DNA from: Biomaibacter acetigenes
Lineage (GTDB): Bacteria; Bacillota; Thermosediminibacteria; Thermosediminibacterales; Tepidanaerobacteraceae
Assembly (NCBI RefSeq): GCF_003691585.1
Contig: NZ_CP033169.1
Span: 2,914,001-2,978,000 of the forward strand
Length of the DNA: 64,000 bases
Direction: 5' to 3'
In this document: positions 37,473-51,665 of the stretch, in pieces
Numbering within the stretch: position 1 is the first letter of the stretch
How the letters are laid out: each line of letters opens with the position of its first letter
Notes under the pieces: generated by a model
What the model saw: the letters and a program-made list of their open reading frames with translations, nothing else
What the model was told of the DNA's origin: nothing
Database searches by the model: none
Translations under genes and position numbers: made by a program

Positions 37473-37620
37473 GGTCAGAGGATCAGGAAAGAAAGAGAAA
37501 AACTTGGGCTTACAAGGGAAAAATTTGCGGAAATCATAGGGCTTTCGGACTACTATGTAGGGCAGCTGGAACGCGGGGAGCGCCAGATGAGCTTAAATGT
37601 ACTGGTAAAAATTGCCGGGA
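37473..37620 (+). pseudogene. XRE-type HTH regulator fragment
   Basis: About 49 codons (GQRIRKEREKLGLTREKFAE then LSDYYVGQLERGERQMSLN) match the N-terminal helix-turn-helix of XRE-type regulators with the typical ERGERQMS motif. The C-terminus is gone, and a 9-bp stem (GAGGACCCA/TGGGTCCTC) follows at 37622-37651. No start signal is obvious. Confidence 0.65.
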
Positions 37621-37656
37621 GGAGGACCCATCCTGGGAAGTTTGGGTCCTCACCCG

Positions 37657-38420
37657 TCAGGGGAAATTGGAAATTTTAAATTTTAATTGGCTCACATCAT
37701 CTACCAAATTTTTGGACATATTACTCAAGGTCTGCGCCGATGATGCAACTTCCTGTGAGGAAGCATTTAATTCCTGTAAGGATGCCGCTATCTGTTCAGA
37801 AGATGCTGAAACCTCTTCTGCCATGGATGCAGCCGTTTCAATACTTTTTATAATAATATGCTTTTTGCCATTAATATGGCTCATATTATTGCTTATATCA
37901 CCGATTCTTGGAAAAATTTCTTCCACATTATTATTATTTCCTTAAAGGAATTAACTGAATTACCGATCACTGTAATCTGCCCGTTTAGTTTATCCTTCAT
38001 AATATCCGAAGTTTTAATAGCCAAATTGCTCTTATTCATAAGATTTTCAAGCAAACTACTTATATTTGAAGATGAAGTTTTTGATTGCTCAGCGAGTTTC
38101 CTAATTTCTTCGGCTACTACTGCAAAGCCTCTGCCTGCTTCCCCTGCTCGTGCCGCTTCTATCGTAGCATTTAGTGCGAGAAGATTGGTCTGCTCTGCAA
38201 TATCATTTATTAAATCAGTAATCTTACCGATTTGAGACAACTGTATTCCAAGTCCTTTTATTTCATTCCTTACATCAGTAAAGGATAAGTTAATGTCTTT
38301 TATAGCATCTTCAAGTATTGCCAAATCCCGGTTGCTGATTTGTGCTTTAGAGTTAATAATCTCGACTCTGGAATTAACTACTTCAAGTGCATTTAGTGTT
38401 TCATCATTTTTGTCCCAAAG
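37657..38420 (-). pseudogene. Methyl-accepting chemotaxis signalling domain fragment
   Basis: The cytoplasmic half of a chemoreceptor. [20 protein letters not shown] and [15 protein letters not shown] form the hairpin tip that contacts CheA and CheW. A frameshift near 37915 divides it. The second piece ends ASSAQTLSNMSKNLVDDVSQ. The sensor and membrane part are missing; the frame is open only from 38420. It lies downstream of the intact cheB and may be the remains of the receptor that the big soluble MCP replaced. Confidence 0.78.
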
Positions 38421-38564
38421 TTATTCATAATAGTATTTATGTTAGTTATATACCTAGGGAGGAGATTATTATGTGACTAAGTTGACTGAATTGCTAAAAC
38501 GGCTATGGTAACATCTAAAAAATAAAAAGCCACGGTTCCATTTTAGTCAAACCGATAAAAGATG

Positions 38565-39620
38565 TTAAATATGCTGTATTATTTGCTGAAAAATGTATGG
38601 CAACGGTACTTGAATATCCGCAAGACCTGCCTCATAAACCACTTTTGGCATGCCGTACACTATGCAGGACTCTTCTGCTTCAACAATAACTTTGCCGTTA
38701 TATTTTTTTACTTCCCTGCAACCCATCAGTCCGTCATTTCCCATACCTGTCATAATAACCGTCAAAAGCCTATCCTTAAATATTTGGGCAGCGGAAATTA
38801 GAGTAATATTGATAGAAGGTTTGTAAACTGTTTCTACTGGAGAGTAGTCCCCTATCCTCAAAATTACACTTCTGTCATCTTTCTTTTGCAAAAAAGTCTG
38901 TAAGCCGGCAGGAGCTATGTAGATATTCCCTGCTTCAAGTATGTCTCCGTCTGCCGCTTCCTTGACATGAAGGTTGCAGATCTTATCAAACCGTTCAGCC
39001 AGTGGCGCTGTAAAACCAGGCGGCATATGCTGAATAACAATGATAGGTACGCTTGTTTCTTTGGGAAAGCGGGGTAAGAGGGATTGCAATGCGGATGGCC
39101 CTCCTGTTGAACACCCGATAATTAACAGGTCGGTAGTTTTCTCTTTTAGCAGCACCTTGCTTTCTGGGTTATGTTGTGGCCTTTCAGTTTGAGTAATATT
39201 TTCCTGCAGAGGTACTTTTGCTCCCTCCGCAATTGCTTTTAATCTATCTAAAAAATCATTTGTGATTTCCTGCCCCACATCTTCTTTAATCAACACACTT
39301 TTAAGGAAGAAATCAATTGCCCCAAGTTCCAGTGCTTTTATCGTAGTCTTGGCCCCTTCCTCGGTGTAGTTACTCAACATGACCACAGGAATCGGGCAGG
39401 TCTTCATGATATGCTCCAAAGCAGCTATTCCATCCATTTCGGGCATTTCCACATCCATCGTCACTATATCGGGTTTAAGACGCTGGACCTTCTCTATGGC
39501 ATCAAGGCCATTCCGTGCAACTCCTATGACAAAGAACTGAGGGTCTCTTTCAATGATAAGGCTTATACACCTTCTCATAAAGGAGGAATCGTCTACCACT
39601 AACACCCCGTACTGCCGCAT
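38565..39620 (-). CDS. cheB: Chemotaxis methylesterase/deamidase
   Basis: CheB removes methyl groups from receptor glutamates. The 351-residue protein has a receiver domain (VVDDSSFMRR, phosphorylated Asp in TMDVEMPEMDG, Lys at FLKSVL) and the esterase domain with the catalytic triad in GCSTGGPSAL (Ser), VIQHMPPGFT (His) and MTGMGNDG (Asp). The ATG at 39620 overlaps the cheR stop; AAAGGAGG lies upstream. It is the last gene of the che operon. Confidence 0.95.
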   Translation of the reverse strand: MRQYGVLVVDDSSFMRRCISLIIERDPQFFVIGVARNGLDAIEKVQRLKPDIVTMDVEMPEMDGIAALEHIMKTCPIPVVMLSNYTEEGAKTTIKALELGAIDFFLKSVLIKEDVGQEITNDFLDRLKAIAEGAKVPLQENITQTERPQHNPESKVLLKEKTTDLLIIGCSTGGPSALQSLLPRFPKETSVPIIVIQHMPPGFTAPLAERFDKICNLHVKEAADGDILEAGNIYIAPAGLQTFLQKKDDRSVILRIGDYSPVETVYKPSINITLISAAQIFKDRLLTVIMTGMGNDGLMGCREVKKYNGKVIVEAEESCIVYGMPKVVYEAGLADIQVPLPYIFQQIIQHI

Positions 39621-40432
39621 AGAGAATTTCCTCCTTTCTTGTAGTAGAATATATTCTGTGTATATATTGTCTCAAAATCGCTTTTCATTCCCGTTATTGT
39701 CTCCGCATGACCTAAAAACAGGTATCCGCCCGGTTTTAATATATTAGAAAAATCGTCGACTATTCTTTGGATAGCCTTTGTATCAAAGTATATCAGCACA
39801 TTTCTGCATAAGATAATATCCGATTTTTCAATTTTCCCTGTTATGTTATTATCTAAAAGGTTCATGTATCTAAAATCAACCATCTCCATGATAGAGTCTT
39901 TGACCTTATAATCTTCCTCTAGTTCTATAAAAAACTTATCCAAGACGCCTTCGGGCATTTTCCTAAAAGAGAAAGACTTCTTATTATACACACCGCTCCT
40001 GGCTTTTTTAAGCACCTTTTTATTAATATCCGAAGCGATAATCCTCACAGCCCCTGGCTGGAACAACCCGGACTCTTCTACGAGTATTCCAATAGTATAA
40101 GGCTCTTCACCGCTGGAACATGCCGCGCACCATATCACTAATGGGTTTTCTGTTGTGCGGTCCTTATACTGGGGCAGTATGGCACTCTTAATTTCATCCA
40201 GCAAATTTTCTTCTCTAAAAAAATAGGTTTCATTTACGGTGATTAATTCAATTAGGGTATCCCATTCCTTTGCCTCCATTTTGAGGTATCCGCAGTACTC
40301 CCAGGCGGAAAGCCCCAATTCCTTCAGCCTTCCTGATATTTTAGGCTCAAGGGAGGAAAGGTTTTTCATGTAGTCGATGCCACAATAGTTATATATGAGT
40401 TCTGCTAATTGAACTAACCCGATTGTATCCAT
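39599..40432 (-). CDS. cheR: Chemotaxis methyltransferase
   Basis: CheR methylates receptor glutamates using S-adenosylmethionine. Residues about 1-75 form the all-helical N-terminal domain; the Rossmann domain follows with WCAACSSGEEPYTIG (cofactor loop), ASDIN, and ILCRNVLIYFD. The ATG at 40432 is chosen as the best-fitting start, since it begins the conserved N-terminal domain, though the ribosome-binding site is not ideal; a TTG at 40462 is the alternative. There is no TPR extension. Confidence 0.92.
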   Translation of the reverse strand: MDTIGLVQLAELIYNYCGIDYMKNLSSLEPKISGRLKELGLSAWEYCGYLKMEAKEWDTLIELITVNETYFFREENLLDEIKSAILPQYKDRTTENPLVIWCAACSSGEEPYTIGILVEESGLFQPGAVRIIASDINKKVLKKARSGVYNKKSFSFRKMPEGVLDKFFIELEEDYKVKDSIMEMVDFRYMNLLDNNITGKIEKSDIILCRNVLIYFDTKAIQRIVDDFSNILKPGGYLFLGHAETITGMKSDFETIYTQNIFYYKKGGNSLCGSTGC

Positions 40433-40514
40433 AGATATTACTACTGACTCCCACCTATACAAAGTTTATATCCGCCGGGAAGATATCTTTCCCAGCGGAT
40501 ACTGTGCCTTATAA

Positions 40515-43500
40515 TTATTTTTCAGTTAATTCCTCAAACGCTTCCTTGATTCCAGCAGAGTATCCAAACAATTCTTTGGTTACTGCCGCTGTTTGCTCCA
40601 CATCCTTGAAATTAAGGTCGACAACCCTGTTGATTTCACTTACGAATTTTACAAGCTGCGCAACTTCAGACGCCTGAACCCTGGTTGCCTCTGTAACCTC
40701 ACTTGCCTGGGCTGTCACATCCTTAATATTGACAATCAACTTGTCTACACCGGAAGCCTGATGCTTCATAGCCGCGGTAATTTGTTTTACCTGTTCTCTT
40801 GCATTGCCAACACCTTTGATAACTTCTTCCACACCTGCTGCCTGTTCCTTTGTAGCTTGAGTCACTTGGGCTGCCTGCCTGGTTACATTTTCCACGGCAA
40901 CTACAATATTCTGCCCCTGTTTCGCTTGTTCTTTAACGGCCACAGTTATTTGACGAACCTGCTCTCTTGCATTCTCAACGCTTTTTACTATATTGTCTAC
41001 ACCTGCCGCCTGTTCCTTTACAGCACTGGCCACAAGGGCTGTCTGGTCTGTCACATTCTGTACTGACTTTACAATATCCTGCCCTTGTTTAGCCTGTTCC
41101 TTGACCGCCAACGTAATCTGCCTTACCTGCTCACGGGCATTCAAAACACCCTTTATGATTTCCTCAACGCCTTTGGTCTGCTCCTTAACAGCTACAGCCA
41201 CTCGCTCAGCCTGGTCATTTACATTTTCTACAGATTTAACGATGTTCTGCCCTTGGTTTGCCTGTTCTTTAACAGCTACAGTTATTTGCCTCACCTGTTC
41301 ACGGGCATTAGTTACGCCTTTGATGACTTCTTCTACGCCCTTGGCCTGCTCTTTGGTTGCCTGTGTTACCCGGGCCGCTTGGTCGGTTACGTTCTGGGCA
41401 GCGGCTGTAATGTTTTGCCCTTGCTTTGCCTGTTCCTTTACAGCTACAGTAATCTGTCTTACCTGCTCACGGGCATTCAAAACACCCTTTATAATATTTT
41501 CCACTCCCTGAGCTTGTTCCTGGGTTACTTTCGTAATCTGTGCAGCCTGGTCCTTCACATTTTCAACTGCCGTAACTATGTTCTGTCCTTGCCTGGACTG
41601 CTCCTTCATGGCAGCAGTAATCTGCTTAACCTGTTCTCTTGCATTGGCAACACCCTTGATAACCTCTTGCGCACCTGCCGCCTGTTCTTTGGCTGCAACC
41701 GCAACCTGTGCCGTTTGTTTCGCCACATTTTCAATCGCCTTGAGGATATTCTGCCCATGGTTGGCCTGCTCTTTGACCGCCACCGTAATTTGCCTTACCT
41801 GCTCACGGGCATTGGCTACACCCTTTATAATTTCATCTACGCCTTTGGATTGTTCGGTTACAGCCTGCGATACCTGAGCAGCTTGTTTATTTACATTCTC
41901 TACCGCTATCACAATATTCTGCCCCTGTTTCGCCTGCTCCTTAACAGCAACAGTAACCTGGCGGACCTGCTCTCTGGCATTAGCAACACCCTTAACGATA
42001 TTCTCAGCACCTGCAGCCTGTTCTTTTGTACTCTGTGTAACCATTGCCGCCTGGTTGGTAACAACCTTCATAGCTTCAATAATTTTTGCACTGCCATTAT
42101 TCTGCTCCTCAGTTGCAACTGTAATCTGACGAATTTCGGCATTTACATTTTCCACGCCCTCTACTATCTTTTCAATGGCTTTACCGGCTTCATCACTTAA
42201 TTTTGTTCCATTTTCGACCTTTTGGGTACCGACTTCAATAGCCTTTATGGCATTCGAAGTTTCACCCTGGATACCTTTAATAAGGGCTGATATTTCTTTC
42301 GTTGCAGTAGCAGTCCTTTCAGCAAGTTTCCTTACCTCGTCCGCAACCACTGCAAAACCTTTGCCATGTTCGCCGGCTCTGGCCGCTTCAATTGCCGCAT
42401 TTAATGCAAGGAGGTTGGTCTGCTCTGCTATATCGTCTATGACCTCTATAATACTGCCAATCTTTTCAGAACTCTTTCCAAGGTTAATGATAACATTTTC
42501 GGCCCTATGGATAACCTCTGAAATTTCCTTAATGGCCACCAGGGTATCAGCAACAGCTTTCTGGCCATCTTTAGCATCAGCTTGTACTTTATCGCTTAAT
42601 TTGTTTACATTCTGTGCGTTCTGGGCAACCTGGCTGATGGAGGCCGCCATGTTTTCAACTACCTGAAATGTTTCACCGGCGGATTTCTGGAGCTGTTCTG
42701 CACTGCTTGCAACGCTCTGGATTGATTTGCCCATTTCTTCTATTGAAGCGGATATTTCTTCAACTGATATTGCTGTACTTTCGGCATTTCCCGATACCTG
42801 CTGGATGGAGGCTACTATCTCCTGGACCGCAGCAGCCGCTTCATCTGCCGAACCCTTCAGGCTTTCGGCGTTGCCCGCTACGCCTTTAATGGATTTGCCC
42901 ATCTGTTCAATGGAGGAGGAAATCTGTTCTACCGAGCTTGCGGTACTATCTGCATTGCCTGCTACCTGCTGGATGGAAGCCACCATTTCCTGGATGGCTG
43001 CGGCCGCTTCATCTGCAGAGCCCTTCAGGCTCTCGGCGTTGCCGGCAACTCCCTTGATGGACTTGCCCATCTGCTCAATGGAAGATGAGATTTGCTCTAC
43101 CGAGCTGGCAGTTGATTCTGAATTCCCAGCTACCTGCTGGATGGAGGCTACTATCTCCTGCACTGCAGCTGCGGCTTCTTCCGCCGATCCTTTTAGGCTT
43201 TCGGCGTTGCCCGCTACGCCCTTGATGGATTTGCCCATCTGCTCTATTGCCACCGAAATCTCTTCAACTGATTTTGCTGTACTTTCGGCATTTCCCGATA
43301 CCTGCTGGATGGAGGCTACTATCTCCTGGACCGCAGCAGCCGCTTCATCTGCCGAACCCTTCAGGCTTTCGGCGTTGCCCGCTACGCCTTTAATGGATTT
43401 GCCCATCTGTTCAATGGAGGAGGAAATCTGTTCTACCGAGCTTGCGGTACTATCTGCATTGCCTGCTACCTGCTGGATGGAAGCCACCATTTCCTGGATG

Positions 43501-44276
43501 GCTGCGGCCGCTTCATCTGCAGAGCCCTTCAGGCTCTCGGCGTTGCCGGCAACTCCCTTGATGGACTTGCCCATCTGCTCAATGGAAGATGAGATTTGCT
43601 CTACCGAGCTGGCAGTTGATTCTGAATTCCCAGCTACCTGCTGGATGGAAGCTACTATCTCCTGCACTGCAGCTGCGGCTTCTTCCGCCGATCCTTTTAG
43701 GCTTTCGGTGTTGCCGGCAACTCCCTTGATGGATTTACTCATTTGTTCTATAGAGGCAGAAATTTCTTCAACAGAATTTGCAGTGGACTCCGAATTCCCT
43801 GCAACCTGTTGTATGGAGGCGACAATCTCCTGAATGGAAGAAGTAACTTCTTCCGCTGAAGCAGCCATGCTTTCCGCATTGCCGGCTACTCCCTTAATGG
43901 ATTTACCCATTTGTTCGATAGATGAGGAAATTTGTTCTATAGAACCGGCGGTACTCTCAGAGTTGCCTGCAACCTGCTTGATACTTGCAGCCATCTCACC
44001 CAGAGAATTCTGTGACTGCTCTGCAAGCCTCGCCAGTTGTTCTGCATTCTTCACTATCCCGTCAATTGACCTGGATAGTTCACTCGTCATTTTATTGGCC
44101 GACTCAGCGGCAGAGGACTGTTCTCTTGTGCCTTTTGTTATCTGCTCAGTAATAGCAGATAAATCTTTTAACTTAGAATCTAGTTTTTCAGAAGAGTTTA
44201 CCGCCATATTTATCTTTTGGGTAATACCCGAATTTCCCATAAGCATCATTGCAAGATTTTTTGTAAATTTGCCCAT
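40515..44276 (-). CDS. Giant soluble chemoreceptor with matched repeat arms
   Basis: A 1253-residue protein with no signal peptide, no membrane helix and no recognised ligand domain. After a 98-residue head, residues 99-546 are eight units of 56 residues ([11 protein letters not shown]... through [13 protein letters not shown]...). Residues 547-717 hold the signalling hairpin with [20 protein letters not shown] at the tip (around residue 632). Residues 718-1165 are another eight 56-residue units ([12 protein letters not shown]... ending NAREQVRQ), and residues 1166-1253 are the tail. The repeat blocks are equally far from the tip on both sides. The result is an antiparallel coiled-coil about three times the usual length. 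It lies between cheA and cheR, so it is the dedicated receptor of the system. The C-terminus lacks a CheR-tethering pentapeptide. Confidence 0.9.
40782..42125 (-). repeat. Eight 168-bp units, C-terminal arm of the MCP
   Basis: Eight in-frame units of 56 codons each (residues 718-1165). The units diverge more from one another than those of the N-terminal arm, but all end in NAREQV(R/K)Q. Confidence 0.9.
42639..43982 (-). repeat. Eight 168-bp units, N-terminal arm of the MCP
   Basis: Eight in-frame units of 56 codons each (residues 99-546). A block of about three units repeats with an offset of 504 bp (for example 42781 matches 43285), with only a few differences over more than 400 bp, a sign of recent unequal recombination. 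Confidence 0.92.
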
Positions 44277-44326: not shown

Positions 44327-46423
44327 TTATCTGTCGCCGACTTCAATATCACAATTCTGATAATCATCAACTGCCGTTACTTTACGGCTGCTTACCATTT
44401 TAGAAATTCCTACTACATCCAGAATGCATGCTACACTGCCATCACCCAAAATTGTAGCTCCCGAAAAGCCTTCAATCTTACCTATATACATTCCAAGAGG
44501 TTTTACAACAACCTCCTGGTTCCCCACAAGTTCATCTACCACAAGCCCCAAACGTTTTTCTGCCACGCCCAGAACTACTATAAAGACATTTCTCCCCCTC
44601 TTGCGGCGGGGGATATTGAAATAGTCATGCAACCATATCAAAGGTAAGACCTTTTCTCGTATTACCGATACAGCCTGACCTTTAACAAACTCTATTTCTC
44701 TTTCGGGCTTGCGGACTATTTCAATTACATTGCTCATGGGCAGGGCATAGGTCTCATCGTTTATCTTAACTAACAATCCTGTAAGGATAGCCAGCGTAAG
44801 GGGCAGCTTAATGGTAAACTTTGTGCCTTCGCCTTGCTTCGTCTCTACGTCAATAATCCCATTTAGTCTGTCGACATGATTTCTTACTATATCCATCCCT
44901 ACACCACGGCCAGAAATGTCATTGACCGTTTGAGAAGTTGAAAACCCCGTATGGAAAATAAGGTTTATCACTTCCTGCTCTGTTAAGTTTTCGGCATCCT
45001 GTGATGTAATTATTTGTTTTTTAATAGCGGCCTGTTTAACCTTCCGTAAGTCAATCCCTCTTCCGTCATCCTCAATTGTAAGAATTACGTGGTTTTCCTG
45101 ATGGAATGCTGTGATACGCAGTATTCCTTTCAGAGGTTTACCCGTCTTTTTGCGGATATCTGGAGTTTCAATGCCATGGTCTATGGCGTTCCGTATAAGG
45201 TGGATTAACGGGTCGGTTATTTCTTCTATTATGGTCCTGTCCATCTCAGTATCCCCACCTTCGAGGATCAACTCCACTTGCTTATTTAAGGATTCGGACA
45301 GGTCCCTTACCATCCGTGGAAAGCGGTTAAATAGTTGTTGAATAGGCAGCATACGGGATTTCATAACACCTTCTTGAAGTTCGCCGATTACTCTTGACAC
45401 ACGGTTTGATATTCCCAAAAGGTCATCGATTACATCATCAGAGGAATAACGATTATGTAGAATATTCCCGACCTGCAGGATTCTTGCCTGTTCGATCACC
45501 AACTCGCCCACGAGGTTCATCATTTTTTCAAGCCTTTCTACATCCACACGCACTGTTTGGGTAACCCTTTTTTCGTAATTTGCAGTTTTGGAAGTAGTAT
45601 CAATATCAGTTTCTTTTTGTTGGGCCTTTTCAGGCTGTTTATAATTTTGTAGAGTTTCGCCGTAGAATGGAACGACTTTAACTTCATCAATATCCATTAG
45701 TTCATCCCTTGACTTTGCTTCGAAGGTTGATGCGTCCATTTGTGTGATAACAAGATACGAAACCCTATCGATTTCGGCATCATCTGGTGTTTCCAACACA
45801 TCCGGGTCAGTATAGATCACGGTACCCAGCTCATTAAAGTAGTTTAATATCAGGCAAGCACGGGCTGATTTCATCAGACTTCCTTCTGAAATCTTAACAT
45901 GACAAATCAGAACGTTTAAACCCGACTTTACTGCCTGCTCCAGTTGCGCCTGCTGGTCCGAACCAAGTGTAAACTCAACGAATTGATTGCTTTCATCTTT
46001 AGTTTTGCCAGTATCAACTTCGTTATATTTCTCTGGCAGCACTTCTCTTAAACTGTTAATAATAGGGGCTATATCAGTCTTAATATCCTTTCTGTCAGAT
46101 ACAAAATCTTCTTTTAGCATCCTTAAATGGTCCAAACACTGAAAGAGTACATTAATGACCGGTTTTGATATTTTTAGAAGATGGTTGCGTACCCTGTCTA
46201 ACACATTCTCCATTTCGTGGGTCAGGAGTTTCATTTTTTCAAATCCCATCGCTGATGAAGAGCCTTTCAATGTATGAGCTATGCGAAATAACTTTTGTAC
46301 TATTTCTGGAGTCTCACCTTTTTGTTCCAACTCTAAAATGCTTTGTTCGAGAAGTTGCAACTGTTCTTCTGTTTCGTCAAGAAATGCCCCTATCATTTCT
46401 GAGCTTTCAAATATTCCAGCCAT
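44327..46423 (-). CDS. cheA: Chemotaxis histidine kinase
   Basis: A 698-residue CheA. P1 with the phosphorylated His in AHTLKGSSSAMGF; a linker region containing a P2-like segment (residues about 150-250); P3 dimerisation (VRVDVERLEKMMNLVGELVIEQ); P4 kinase with N box HLIRNAIDHGIE, G1 DDGRGID and G2 SGRGVGMDIVR; and P5, the CheW-like domain with ISVGN-type contacts to receptor and CheW. It lies 50 bases upstream of the receptor gene. Nothing is missing. Confidence 0.95.
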   Translation of the reverse strand: MAGIFESSEMIGAFLDETEEQLQLLEQSILELEQKGETPEIVQKLFRIAHTLKGSSSAMGFEKMKLLTHEMENVLDRVRNHLLKISKPVINVLFQCLDHLRMLKEDFVSDRKDIKTDIAPIINSLREVLPEKYNEVDTGKTKDESNQFVEFTLGSDQQAQLEQAVKSGLNVLICHVKISEGSLMKSARACLILNYFNELGTVIYTDPDVLETPDDAEIDRVSYLVITQMDASTFEAKSRDELMDIDEVKVVPFYGETLQNYKQPEKAQQKETDIDTTSKTANYEKRVTQTVRVDVERLEKMMNLVGELVIEQARILQVGNILHNRYSSDDVIDDLLGISNRVSRVIGELQEGVMKSRMLPIQQLFNRFPRMVRDLSESLNKQVELILEGGDTEMDRTIIEEITDPLIHLIRNAIDHGIETPDIRKKTGKPLKGILRITAFHQENHVILTIEDDGRGIDLRKVKQAAIKKQIITSQDAENLTEQEVINLIFHTGFSTSQTVNDISGRGVGMDIVRNHVDRLNGIIDVETKQGEGTKFTIKLPLTLAILTGLLVKINDETYALPMSNVIEIVRKPEREIEFVKGQAVSVIREKVLPLIWLHDYFNIPRRKRGRNVFIVVLGVAEKRLGLVVDELVGNQEVVVKPLGMYIGKIEGFSGATILGDGSVACILDVVGISKMVSSRKVTAVDDYQNCDIEVGDR

Positions 46424-46435
46424 ACCACACCCTCC

Positions 46436-46864
46436 TTACGCCTCATAAAGCACTTTATCGATTTTTAATATGCTGACAACTCCTTCATCTGTAATACCAA
46501 TACCTTCAAAATAGTCACCATTGATCCCTGCTACCATTTCAGGAGGGGGTTGGATTTCTAAAAACTTAATAACCTGATTTACCCTGTCAACCACTATGCC
46601 TACCATTTCATCTCTGCTTTTTACAACAACGATGCGGGTTGATTTAGTGACAGTATAATTATTTAGGCCAAACCGCTTATGTAAATTGATAACTGGGACA
46701 ATCTTGCCGCGAAGGTTGATAATTCCCTCTAAATAAGGCTTGCTGTTATGGACAGGGGTAACCTTTTGCATTTTAATAATCTCATACACATCACTAATTA
46801 TCAGCGCGTACTTTTCATTGGCCAACTCATATTCAACATACTGGGCATCCAATAATACACTCAA
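46436..46864 (-). CDS. cheW: Chemotaxis coupling protein
   Basis: A 142-residue SH3-like protein that links receptor and CheA. EYELANEKYALIISDVYEI and LEGIINLRGKIVPVINL (the receptor-binding region with the conserved Arg) are typical. It follows cheY and precedes cheA by about ten bases. Confidence 0.95.
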   Translation of the reverse strand: MSVLLDAQYVEYELANEKYALIISDVYEIIKMQKVTPVHNSKPYLEGIINLRGKIVPVINLHKRFGLNNYTVTKSTRIVVVKSRDEMVGIVVDRVNQVIKFLEIQPPPEMVAGINGDYFEGIGITDEGVVSILKIDKVLYEA

Positions 46865-46914: not shown

Positions 46915-47268
46915 TTACAGCTTGCTTAAAGTCCTGATTAAATAATCCTCTTTGTACGGCTTAACAACAAAACCCTTTGCCCCAAGCTTAACCGCTTCTC
47001 TTACATAAGATTCCTGCCCTAAAGCACTGATAATAATAATTTTTGAATTAGGGTTCAATTTCCTGATCTCCCTTAATGCTTGGATACCGTCCATCTCAGG
47101 CATGGTAATATCCATTGTGACAATATCGGGTTGCAATTCTTTATATTTGCTTATTGCTACAGAACCGTTTTCAGCCTCACCAACCACCTGAAAGCCATTC
47201 CTCTCAAGCACAGTTCTTATAGCAAATCTCATAAAAGCCGCATCATCAACAATGAGAATTTTTTTCAT
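46915..47268 (-). CDS. cheY: Chemotaxis response regulator
   Basis: A 117-residue single-domain receiver: acidic pair in IVDDAAFMR, phosphorylated Asp in TMDITMPEMDG, switch Ser/Thr at ISALGQ and Lys at VVKPY. The ATG at 47268 has GGGGTGA upstream. It is the first gene of the operon and lies directly after the c-di-GMP riboswitch and terminator. Whether it targets a flagellar switch or another output cannot be said, since no motility genes are in the window. Confidence 0.95.
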   Translation of the reverse strand: MKKILIVDDAAFMRFAIRTVLERNGFQVVGEAENGSVAISKYKELQPDIVTMDITMPEMDGIQALREIRKLNPNSKIIIISALGQESYVREAVKLGAKGFVVKPYKEDYLIRTLSKL

Positions 47269-47313
47269 TGTCAATTTCACCCCTTTCATCAACCAAGATT
47301 CTATAAAAATTAA

Positions 47314-48533: not shown

Positions 48534-50110
48534 CACTAGCGTTGCATAAAATCTTTTTAATAAAAGTCAAGTAAAAACTTGGTATACCTTAATATACCAT
48601 ATATGATAATTTATGGAAGTATCATTTTTTCTCTTATGTTAAAAGGAGCAACCGCCTATGGGTAGTCCTTTTCCATATTTTACCACTGTATTTAGTTAAA
48701 TTATTGGATCGTAACTTAGGTCATCCAAAAAGTCTGCTTCGCCTTGTACCACCTGCCTTAAGGTTTCTTGAAAAATTGTTTCATGATCCACCTTCCGTCG
48801 TTGGCCTTTGGATTTTCTCGTTGGTCGGTAAAGCTTTTTAACGAAGCTTGTGAATGGTTCTAAAAGGCAGGTATGCAGTAATCTCTTGATAGTTAGTAAT
48901 GGCCCTCTGTAACATGTTTTTAACTTTAGAAGCAGCAATAAGCAATAGGTCATCAGCGCAATAAATAATTGGTTTTCCACCGCCCATTGGCTTAGTCCGT
49001 AAAAATGCTTTATGTGTAGGTGCTGTTTTATCCAATTGAAGAATAATTCTATTTGCCATCTGTTGCGGTATATATCGGCTATTCCCTTTGCAGTTATTTT
49101 AAAGTCGTTTGTTATGATGATTATTGGTTCTCCCTGGGTATTCTGGACTTCAATCAATCTTAGGCGATGTTTCATCCGGTTAATGTTTTCTTTGCCCAAG
49201 TAAACGTATTGTTCACGTTTTATTATACCATTGGGATCTAAAGGAAGTTCTTCATCTACTTTAATTTGAGCATTGCTTTTTAAGCGGGTGACAAAGCGAG
49301 TGCCGTTTTCACAGTAGTTATCGAACTTTTCGTAGTCTACATATCCTCTGTCAAATACATTCAGGGCATCTTTATCTTCAACTACCAGTGTATCCATCTG
49401 AGTTTTGTCAGAAGGTCTTGCCGGGGTTATTATGGCTTTATCAGGGGTTACTCCTTCTTCGAAGAAGTTAAGGCGCAGGTGAAGTTTAACTCCGGCCTTG
49501 GTTTTTCTAAAATGTGCCCATCTATATTGTGAAAGACAAAGACTGATAGTAGATGAATCAATGAGGTATATGCGACCGATGTTTTGCATCGGGTCTTTAA
49601 AGCTCATTTCCTTAGTTGTTTTTTGGATTGTATTTTTTAAAAGCATTTGAGTTATTTTTGGGTCAGTACTTCTTAACTTGCGTGAGATCTGGGATGCGCT
49701 GATGGAATCAAGCTCAATTTTTTCGCTGAATTTATCATCATTTAGAGCATTACTGATATCTCGTAATCCTTGTAGTTGTTCTAGTTGTGCATAGACCATA
49801 AGCTGTATAAATTTTAAGGTAGTTAGTTTCTTTACGTATTTATCGACCCCCGAGGAAATTAAATTTTGAAGGATACTTTTGTTAAATAATGGATTAAACA
49901 GTTGACTTAATGTGGAATTTATGGTATCCTTGCCTTGCATTTTGTTGCTCCTTTATATTAGGGATTTGGGCAAGGACTACCCCATATCTCTATTATAAAG
50001 GATTTTTTCTAAAAGTACAAGGCCTTTTCTTGATTTTTCTTCAGTTTTATTTAATTTTCTTTGCTGTTTTATGGTTGACAAATAAATTTTTTATTTATGT
50101 AACGCTAGTG
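48534..50110. mobile_element. Complete IS4-type insertion sequence with target duplication
   Basis: A 1577-bp element. Terminal repeats are CACTAGCGTTGCATAAA (left) and the complement of CACTAGCGTTACATAAA (right), 16 of 17 bases identical. A 9-bp direct repeat TATTTATAT flanks both sides (48525-48533 and 50111-50119). Inverted subterminal segments (GGAGCAAC...GGTAGTCC) also occur near both ends. The transposase gene lies inside, on the minus strand. The intact state suggests a recent, possibly still active, insertion. Confidence 0.93.
48696..49940 (-). CDS. IS4-family DDE transposase
   Basis: A 414-residue transposase. The catalytic acids are expected in YLIDSSTISL (first Asp), VFDRGYVDYEKF (second Asp) and the YRNRWQIELFFNWIKQHL motif, the Y-(2)-R-(3)-E-(6)-K signature of IS4. 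There is no frameshift. The start lies close to the right terminal repeat of the element. Confidence 0.92.
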   Translation of the reverse strand: MQGKDTINSTLSQLFNPLFNKSILQNLISSGVDKYVKKLTTLKFIQLMVYAQLEQLQGLRDISNALNDDKFSEKIELDSISASQISRKLRSTDPKITQMLLKNTIQKTTKEMSFKDPMQNIGRIYLIDSSTISLCLSQYRWAHFRKTKAGVKLHLRLNFFEEGVTPDKAIITPARPSDKTQMDTLVVEDKDALNVFDRGYVDYEKFDNYCENGTRFVTRLKSNAQIKVDEELPLDPNGIIKREQYVYLGKENINRMKHRLRLIEVQNTQGEPIIIITNDFKITAKGIADIYRNRWQIELFFNWIKQHLHIKHFYGLSQWAVENQLFIALMTYCLLLLLKLKTCYRGPLLTIKRLLHTCLLEPFTSFVKKLYRPTRKSKGQRRKVDHETIFQETLRQVVQGEADFLDDLSYDPII

Positions 50111-50865: not shown

Positions 50866-51665
50866 TTATCCTGTTCCAAATAGCCAGGACCGAGTTTCTT
50901 TCTCCGATACATCTTCGATGCCATCAATTACTCGCAACAGTTCATTCATGTCTACTACGTACGCTTGAGCTTGTTTGGTTAAACTCTTTAGTTTTCTTTC
51001 CAGCAAATTTTTTGTGAGTTCCATGTATTCTTCTTGGCGTGTTAGAACCGCCCATATTATATGCAGCAACTTACGTGCTGTAGCTACAATCGCAATTTTG
51101 TGCCCTTTCTTCTCCTTTAAACGCAAATAAAAAGATCGTAATTTCCCTTTGCTTTGAATTGCTCGCTGTGCACACTGAACCAGTATCCAACGTAGGGTGC
51201 TGCGGCCTTCTTTTGTTATGTTACCGGCATAGCGTGTTTTGCCGGATTGATGAACAGATGGAACCAGTCCCGCGTAACATGCCAGTTTTTTAGGTGACGA
51301 AAAGCGCGAAATTGGCCCAATCTCTGCAAGAATAGTCAATGCGCTCAAAACCGAAATGCCAGGTATACCCATCAGTAATTTTACATTTGGGTTCTCTTTC
51401 GCCCTAGCACACAAATCTGCTTCGAGGGCCGCCATTTCTTTTTGTACAGTATCCAGCAGTTTTAATGATGAACAAACTATGATTTGCTCTGTTTCCGGCA
51501 ACGAAATATTCTCTAAAAATTTTCTTCCGTTTTTCCCAAATAGATCGCTCCATGGAGACTGGATTCCATTGCGAATTAACGCAGCGTGAATCTTGTTTTT
51601 CAGCATAGTACGGATCTTTGCGAGACGGATTCGGTGATGAAGCAGAACTCTTAATTGGTATTCAT
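50866..51665 (-). pseudogene. IS110-family transposase fragment
   Basis: The last 265 codons of an IS110-type DEDD recombinase. The C-terminal Tnp20 domain is complete (LMGIPGISVLSALTILAEIG, KLACYAGLVPSVHQSGKT, the Ser-containing GNITKEGRSTLRWILV), but the RuvC-like catalytic domain is missing upstream. The reading frame continues to about 51665 (LRVLLHHRIRLAKIRT), where the sequence changes abruptly to the group II intron fragment. Confidence 0.87.

Follow-up and report, generated by a model that had tools for sequence, protein, structure and literature searches.

Giant soluble chemoreceptors of Bacillota with two arms of nearly always equal numbers of 56-residue units

Introduction

Chemoreceptors of the named classes range from 12 to 32 paired heptads, and "a few rare receptors" exceed this (PMC6628036); the MiST profiles cover 24H-64H only (PMC6943060). 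Soluble receptors are known from Rhodobacter sphaeroides and Vibrio cholerae, where they sit in cytoplasmic arrays with Che proteins of their own (PMC3964821, PMC6829392); these arrays have two baseplates, about 27-35 nm apart (PMC3964821). A helical bundle can also sense without a ligand domain, as in McpB of Bacillus subtilis, whose cytoplasmic bundle detects ethanol (PMC7542364). The rule that both arms of a chemoreceptor have matched lengths has so far been inferred by comparing distant length classes.

Here we describe a chemoreceptor (methyl-accepting chemotaxis protein, MCP) of Biomaibacter acetigenes that has about 88 heptads per arm and thus falls outside the 24H-64H classes (12 to 32 paired heptads). 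In its family a single receptor in one conserved operon comes in nine length classes, separated by steps of exactly eight heptads, so that symmetric growth can be followed from one close relative to the next, among them a recent breaker of the rule.

Results

A soluble receptor with one signaling tip and two repeat arms

The window, the whole stretch of 64,000 nucleotides that was analyzed (NZ_CP033169.1, positions 2,914,001 to 2,978,000), comes from a genome assembled as one contig of 3.40 Mb. It contains an open reading frame of 1253 codons with an ATG start and no internal stops. The following features of the gene are used below.

40515..44276, minus strand: giant soluble chemoreceptor (MCP), 1253 aa
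44151..44276, minus strand: N-terminal cap, residues 1-42 (MGxFxKNxAxKFMKxxG...)
42639..43982, minus strand: N-arm block, residues 99-546, 8 x 56 (16 x 28) residues, from autocorrelation
42126..42638, minus strand: signaling core, residues 547-717, single tip at E636
40782..42125, minus strand: C-arm block, residues 718-1165, 8 x 56 (16 x 28) residues, from autocorrelation
43274..43708, minus strand: N-arm tract, first copy, 435 bp, one mismatch to the second copy
42770..43204, minus strand: N-arm tract, second copy, 435 bp, at a lag of 504 bp (3 units)

The protein matches the MCP signaling domain of Pfam (PF00015, MCPsignal) with E = 8.5e-73 and 244 bits against a cut-off of 34.6, and the conserved hairpin tip lies at residues 626-636, with E636 as the tip glutamate. 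Double-signaling-domain receptors of the DosM type carry two signaling tips in one chain; the window MCP has only one and is not of this type. A hydropathy scan revealed no membrane segment (maximum Kyte-Doolittle value over 19-mers 0.93; at most 1.47 in the relatives), and no ligand or sensor domain was recognized with Pfam and NCBIfam profiles, in agreement with the initial annotation, which had described a receptor lacking both. Weak matches to DUF948, TACC, SMC, Rad50 and tape measure profiles from the same two collections were dismissed as coiled-coil similarity. The N-terminal cap is short, mostly basic and alike across much of the family.

The initial annotation had also reported exactly eight 56-residue repeats on each side of the tip, centered on residue 632 and grown in heptad register. 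Autocorrelation at lag 56 bears out 8 x 56 residues in both blocks, with an identity of 0.82 in residues 99-546 and 0.66 in residues 718-1165, compared to ~0.2 at off-period lags. At lag 28 the identity is 0.40 in the N block and 0.37 in the C block, indicating that each 56-mer is a pair of 28-residue halves of four heptads each. N units share 53-100% of their residues pairwise and C units 51-83%, and the two kinds of unit differ in sequence. Identity to the N units falls to 5-26% in the 56-mers on either side of the N block, and the 56-mer after the C block shares 26-37% with the C units and forms a weak ninth unit. The block edges are therefore fuzzy, and "exactly eight" depends on where they are placed; the equality of the arms stands when they are measured without any choice of edges, at 636 residues from the N-terminus to E636 and 617 from the tip to the C-terminus. 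The center at residue 632 is likewise near the tip, 4 residues away from E636. The hydrophobic heptad phase is constant and unbroken from residue ~40 to ~1220 in both arms, as expected for growth in register.

The two 435-bp N-arm tracts are the only long near-identical repeat in the gene, and the C arm has no such recent tract. They arose by recent duplication or gene conversion, and the latter fits better than a simple duplication because the stretch of identity (435 bp) falls short of the lag (504 bp). For the same reason we do not take the window MCP to have recently gained three N units.

The receptor gene lies in an accessory chemosensory operon

The genes that flank the receptor encode the other parts of a chemosensory system.

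46915..47292, minus strand: CheY (receiver domain)
46436..46864, minus strand: CheW, a conserved neighbor in the relatives
44327..46423, minus strand: CheA, a conserved neighbor in the family
39599..40462, minus strand: CheR methyltransferase, a conserved neighbor
38565..39620, minus strand: CheB methylesterase, a conserved neighbor (NCBIfam NF001965, E 6e-118)

The window MCP is thus genetically linked to CheA, CheW, CheR and CheB, and the order [CheY]-CheW-CheA-(second CheW)-MCP-CheR-CheB recurs in nearly every locus with enough flanking sequence. The genomes tested carry at least one additional CheA, a CheA of flagellar type exists separately from the giant-MCP operon, and the flagellar export gene FlhA was present in 20 of 20, indicating that the operon is an accessory chemosensory system with its own single giant receptor, apart from the flagellar che genes. 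The closest CheAs of ordinary type are encoded in CheW/CheA/CheB clusters that lack a giant receptor; a short ancestor of the receptor beside these CheAs was considered and rejected because the clusters are flagellar-type and belong to a different system. Genes adjoining the operon were also searched for a conserved partner that might act as a sensor, and no cluster of them occurred in more than 7 loci.

Several features of these neighborhoods are recorded as separate observations. Just downstream of CheB, at 37560-38560, the window holds a decayed ordinary MCP in pieces that lie in different frames, among them a 143-residue tip piece (37893-38324) and a C-arm piece (near 37681-37875). Close upstream of the che operon are transposase-like open reading frames at 48696-49940 and 50866-51606, judged from their translations only. 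In the Bacillaceae members (L065, L064, L066, L067, L068, L130 and L131) CheA has 850-890 residues, and the CheA of L065 carries an extra CheW-like domain after the usual C-terminus; in Paenibacillaceae a second CheW is often encoded by a separate gene following CheA. One locus (G474:C1:56771-59035) holds a broken copy of the system: CheA is split in two, and after it comes an open frame of 250 residues with C-arm repeats.

Relatives occur patchily across Bacillota

The receptor had been put forward as unlike any described, and a search with a profile of its 56-residue unit had been proposed. A scan with the C-unit profile across 84,980 species genomes identified 33 loci, each assigned to Bacillota from its title. 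They belong to Clostridium, Paenibacillus, Saccharibacillus, Cohnella, Brevibacillus, Bacillus and kin, and Alicyclobacillus, and further to Heliorestis, Caldicoprobacter, Thermosyntropha, Thermoanaerobacterium and Lutispora. Whole-genome searches brought in further members. The phylum of the window itself has clear cases in 6 of 398 genomes (8 matches when two more distant ones are included). The order that includes Paenibacillus PastM-3 had 13 among 346 genomes, the Clostridium magnum family 8 among 207, and the order of Rossellomorea 4 true cases among 348. The occurrence of giant MCPs across Bacillota is thus patchy. None were found in the viral contigs searched. The window MCP is therefore one of a family and not unique; a literature search found no paper describing that family, although most subscription journals lay outside its coverage and absence of a description is unproven.

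Two more distant MCPs, L073 (G075) and L072 (G338), show tandem amplification of their own arms and adjoin CheR. The amplified units are 56 residues long in the former and 112 in the latter, possibly independent expansions with the same quantum.

Arm lengths are quantized and nearly always matched

C-arm lengths, measured from the tip to the end, cluster at 280, 336, 392, 448, about 506, 560, 615, 671 and 728 residues. These nine classes are whole multiples of 56 within a few residues, and the quantization at 56 is strong in both arms (Rayleigh R 0.97 for C arms and 0.89 for N arms). The arms span 280 to 748 residues, and the N arm exceeds the C arm by a near-constant 10-21 residues in 34 of 40 proteins. 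The initial annotation had named independent variation of the two sides among relatives as a refutation. The numbers of units in the two arms do not vary in this way: they are equal in 35 of 39, compared to a mean of 5.5 and a maximum of 16 in 10,000 trials of shuffling. Since the members are related, this raw count overstates the independent evidence. On a tree built from the signaling core, with the repeats left out, the number of C units changes at least 17 times, and both arms changed equally in 8 of 11 branch-disjoint pairs that differ in unit number. We also observed that the similarity of repeats within an arm is correlated between species for N and C arms (r 0.75), as if the two blocks turned over at the same pace.

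The matching is not absolute. Four of the 39 relatives are mismatched, by 1, 1, 1 and 4 units. Those off by one unit (L050, L051 and L052) are draft or metagenome members. The fourth, L128, comes from a one-contig genome (G769) in which exactly 672 bp, or four units, are deleted in the N arm only. Its sister G780 (L127), 95% identical in the aligned part, has 13 + 13 units, and the longest exact repeat at the deletion lag in G780 is just 25 bp; the deletion therefore looks real. The N arm and the C arm can thus change one at a time, and the matching of arms is a strong rule with exceptions. Unfit mismatches may later be lost or restored by a compensating change. A further apparent mismatch, in Bacillus sp. 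AFS073361 (L043; 409 versus 615 residues), results from an in-frame TAA within the N arm (the codon before 4943) that is either a sequencing error or a recent nonsense mutation. Counted through this codon, the arms have 635 and 615 residues and 11 + 11 units, and the protein joins the 34 of 40 with the 10-21 residue excess.

N-arm and C-arm changes tend to lie at mirror positions

For sister pairs that differ in unit number, the best gap was placed in each arm separately. Distances of the gap from the tip in the two arms were 393-395 and 389-390 residues for the window MCP and Clostridium sp. C8-1-8, 150-161 and 164-166 for C. thailandense and C. magnum, and 288-335 and 322-332 for Saccharibacillus O23 and S. 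kuerlensis. Across ten pairs, several of which share a protein with another pair, the mean offset between the N and C gaps was 37 residues compared to 120-125 expected (p 0.0003; Spearman 0.94). In seven pairs without shared proteins the offset was 34 compared to 116-130 expected (p 0.001-0.003). Because the position of some gaps could be shifted by one unit and a few pairs show no mirroring, the alignments provide strong but not final evidence that N and C indels occur at mirror positions about the tip. The family thus follows the symmetric-arm-indel rule of chemoreceptors, with equal arms in most relatives, mirror sites and four exceptions.

The arms probably pair along a rod of about 90 nm

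Residues 494-772 of the window MCP align without gaps to the crystallized soluble receptor of Thermotoga maritima (2CH7), tip on tip and over both arms (E 2.5e-32), and by homology the innermost N and C units thus face one another. An AlphaFold2 model of residues 27-1226, computed with six same-length sequences, has one helix from 28 to 633, a turn, and a second helix from 641 to 1225, with low confidence values (pLDDT 52, pTM 0.23) that fall short of establishing pairing. The better-scored ends of the model can be superposed on 3g67, a soluble T. maritima hairpin (Z 11.0; rmsd 3.8 over 169). In the fold comparison the T. maritima receptors rank near the top (Z 11) and are mixed with SMC-type coiled coils, so this comparison lends weak support to a receptor hairpin; Z values near 11 are common for helical bundles. 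A model of a 692-aa Cohnella relative was unusable (pLDDT 42, helices broken in places). The two arms probably pair antiparallel along their full length. At 617 x 0.1485 nm the rod would measure 92 nm, with ~88 paired heptads, so that the hairpin of about 90 nm in the initial annotation is reasonable by arithmetic. The same computation for the whole family gives about 42 to 108 nm, and the arms have about 40-104 heptads each.

We therefore favor, with a probability of roughly 80%, an extra-long cytoplasmic four-helix-bundle receptor of ~90 nm whose arms pair in register. The N arm would run to the tip and turn at E636, with the C arm returning, to form a single antiparallel helical hairpin, and two hairpins would make up a standard four-helix bundle, about 90 nm long and with about 88 paired heptads. 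The conserved tip would bind the operon's own CheW and CheA and regulate the latter, while CheR and CheB would adjust the receptor by methylation. Since the receptor lacks a membrane segment, the rods would assemble into a cytoplasmic array, possibly with two facing baseplates. Sensing may be performed by the bundle itself or through the N-terminal cap. Recombination within each block would lengthen or shorten the arms by whole 56-residue (8.3 nm) units. Selection to keep the bundle paired throughout would hold the N and C unit numbers equal and confine changes in the two arms to matching heights along the rod.

Matches to the methylation consensus are repeated in the N arm

Using the published methylation consensus as quoted in PMC6829392, we identified 13 matches in the N arm of the window MCP. 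The density of matches in N arms across the family is 0.5-2.8 per 56 residues, in each member higher than in shuffles that preserve the heptads, and the consensus is almost absent from C arms. With about one match per N-arm unit and hardly any in the C arm, adaptation by methylation along the N arm appears possible. A stronger version holds that each N-arm unit exists to add a methylatable site and that length reflects the number of sites, not distance. The enrichment in every N arm and the adjoining CheR and CheB genes are consistent with this proposal, which may be compatible with a paired long rod. However, the repeats copy one motif many times and the counts are therefore not independent; moreover, site number would not alone explain matched growth of C arms that are almost free of the consensus. 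We consider it unlikely that site number is what sets the length.

Discussion

Our data argue that receptor length in this family is countable and testable, as both arms nearly always change equally at mirror places. Could the equal counts instead be an accident inherited within clades, with blocks that slip freely and no need for pairing? Such neutral expansion would accommodate the four-unit deletion confined to the N arm in a one-contig genome, the three other relatives that differ by one unit, and the recent 435-bp tract in the N arm of the window MCP that has no C-arm counterpart. It is difficult to reconcile with matching in 35 of 39 relatives through about 17 changes, with mirror-image indel sites, and with the preservation, in species from several families, of reading frame and heptad phase across more than 1,100 residues, and we regard it as improbable.

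Still less probable, in our judgment, is that the protein is an MCP-derived coiled coil that no longer signals and serves as a filament or scaffold, a cytoskeletal or spacing element. The extreme length, the lack of a sensor domain and membrane anchor, and fold matches that include SMC proteins and other long coiled coils would suit such a role, but the signaling core is intact and highly conserved, methylation motifs are retained, and the gene lies nearly always between CheA/CheW and CheR/CheB, genes that would be idle beside a pure scaffold. An artefact of assembly or annotation, with repeats collapsed or multiplied and unit numbers wrong, is hardly credible despite the near-identical 435-bp tract and several relatives in drafts cut off inside the repeats, because random errors would not equalize two arms, short-read collapse cannot explain the family pattern when exact repeats stay below 100 bp in most relatives, and the window, G318, G142, G108, G789, G780, G769 and L065 are in one-contig or chromosome-scale assemblies; for the window MCP itself, in a one-contig genome, an assembly error in the unit count is accordingly unlikely.

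If the arms pair as a long rod, the family poses a structural question: how a signal travels along about 90 nm of bundle, and what array such rods build. Modular rods of about 40-108 nm could build deep cytoplasmic arrays whose length is tuned in 8.3-nm steps with both arms forced to be equal at each level, a natural length ruler in a signaling machine; we put this forward tentatively, as somewhat less than an even bet. Either way, the family is a natural set of rods for testing long-range signaling in coiled coils, and the G769 receptor is a natural unmatched case that is useful for testing the matching rule.

Among known systems, the soluble T. maritima receptors 2CH7 and 3G67 are similar in forming an antiparallel hairpin without a membrane part in the crystal. 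They differ in size, at about 300 and 213 residues compared to 1253, and have no tandem 56-residue blocks. The 44H receptors of Bacillota (B. subtilis type) share the same signaling tip. In related genomes, the C arm of ordinary MCPs found next to flagellar CheA measures 153-154 residues, or 22 heptads; the window C arm, at 617 residues and 88 heptads, is four times longer, and the window MCP lacks the transmembrane and ligand domains of the 44H type. In the 64H receptors, the longest named class, length is likewise set by matched heptads in both arms, with 32 paired heptads compared to about 40-104 per arm here. To hold ~90-nm rods, a two-baseplate array like those of R. sphaeroides and V. 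cholerae would have to space its baseplates much farther apart. McpB provides a precedent for sensing by a helical bundle without a ligand domain; unlike the window MCP, it is a membrane receptor with an extracellular domain. Collectively, these comparisons place the giant-MCP family within the MCP superfamily, obeying its symmetric-arm rule and lying outside every named length class.
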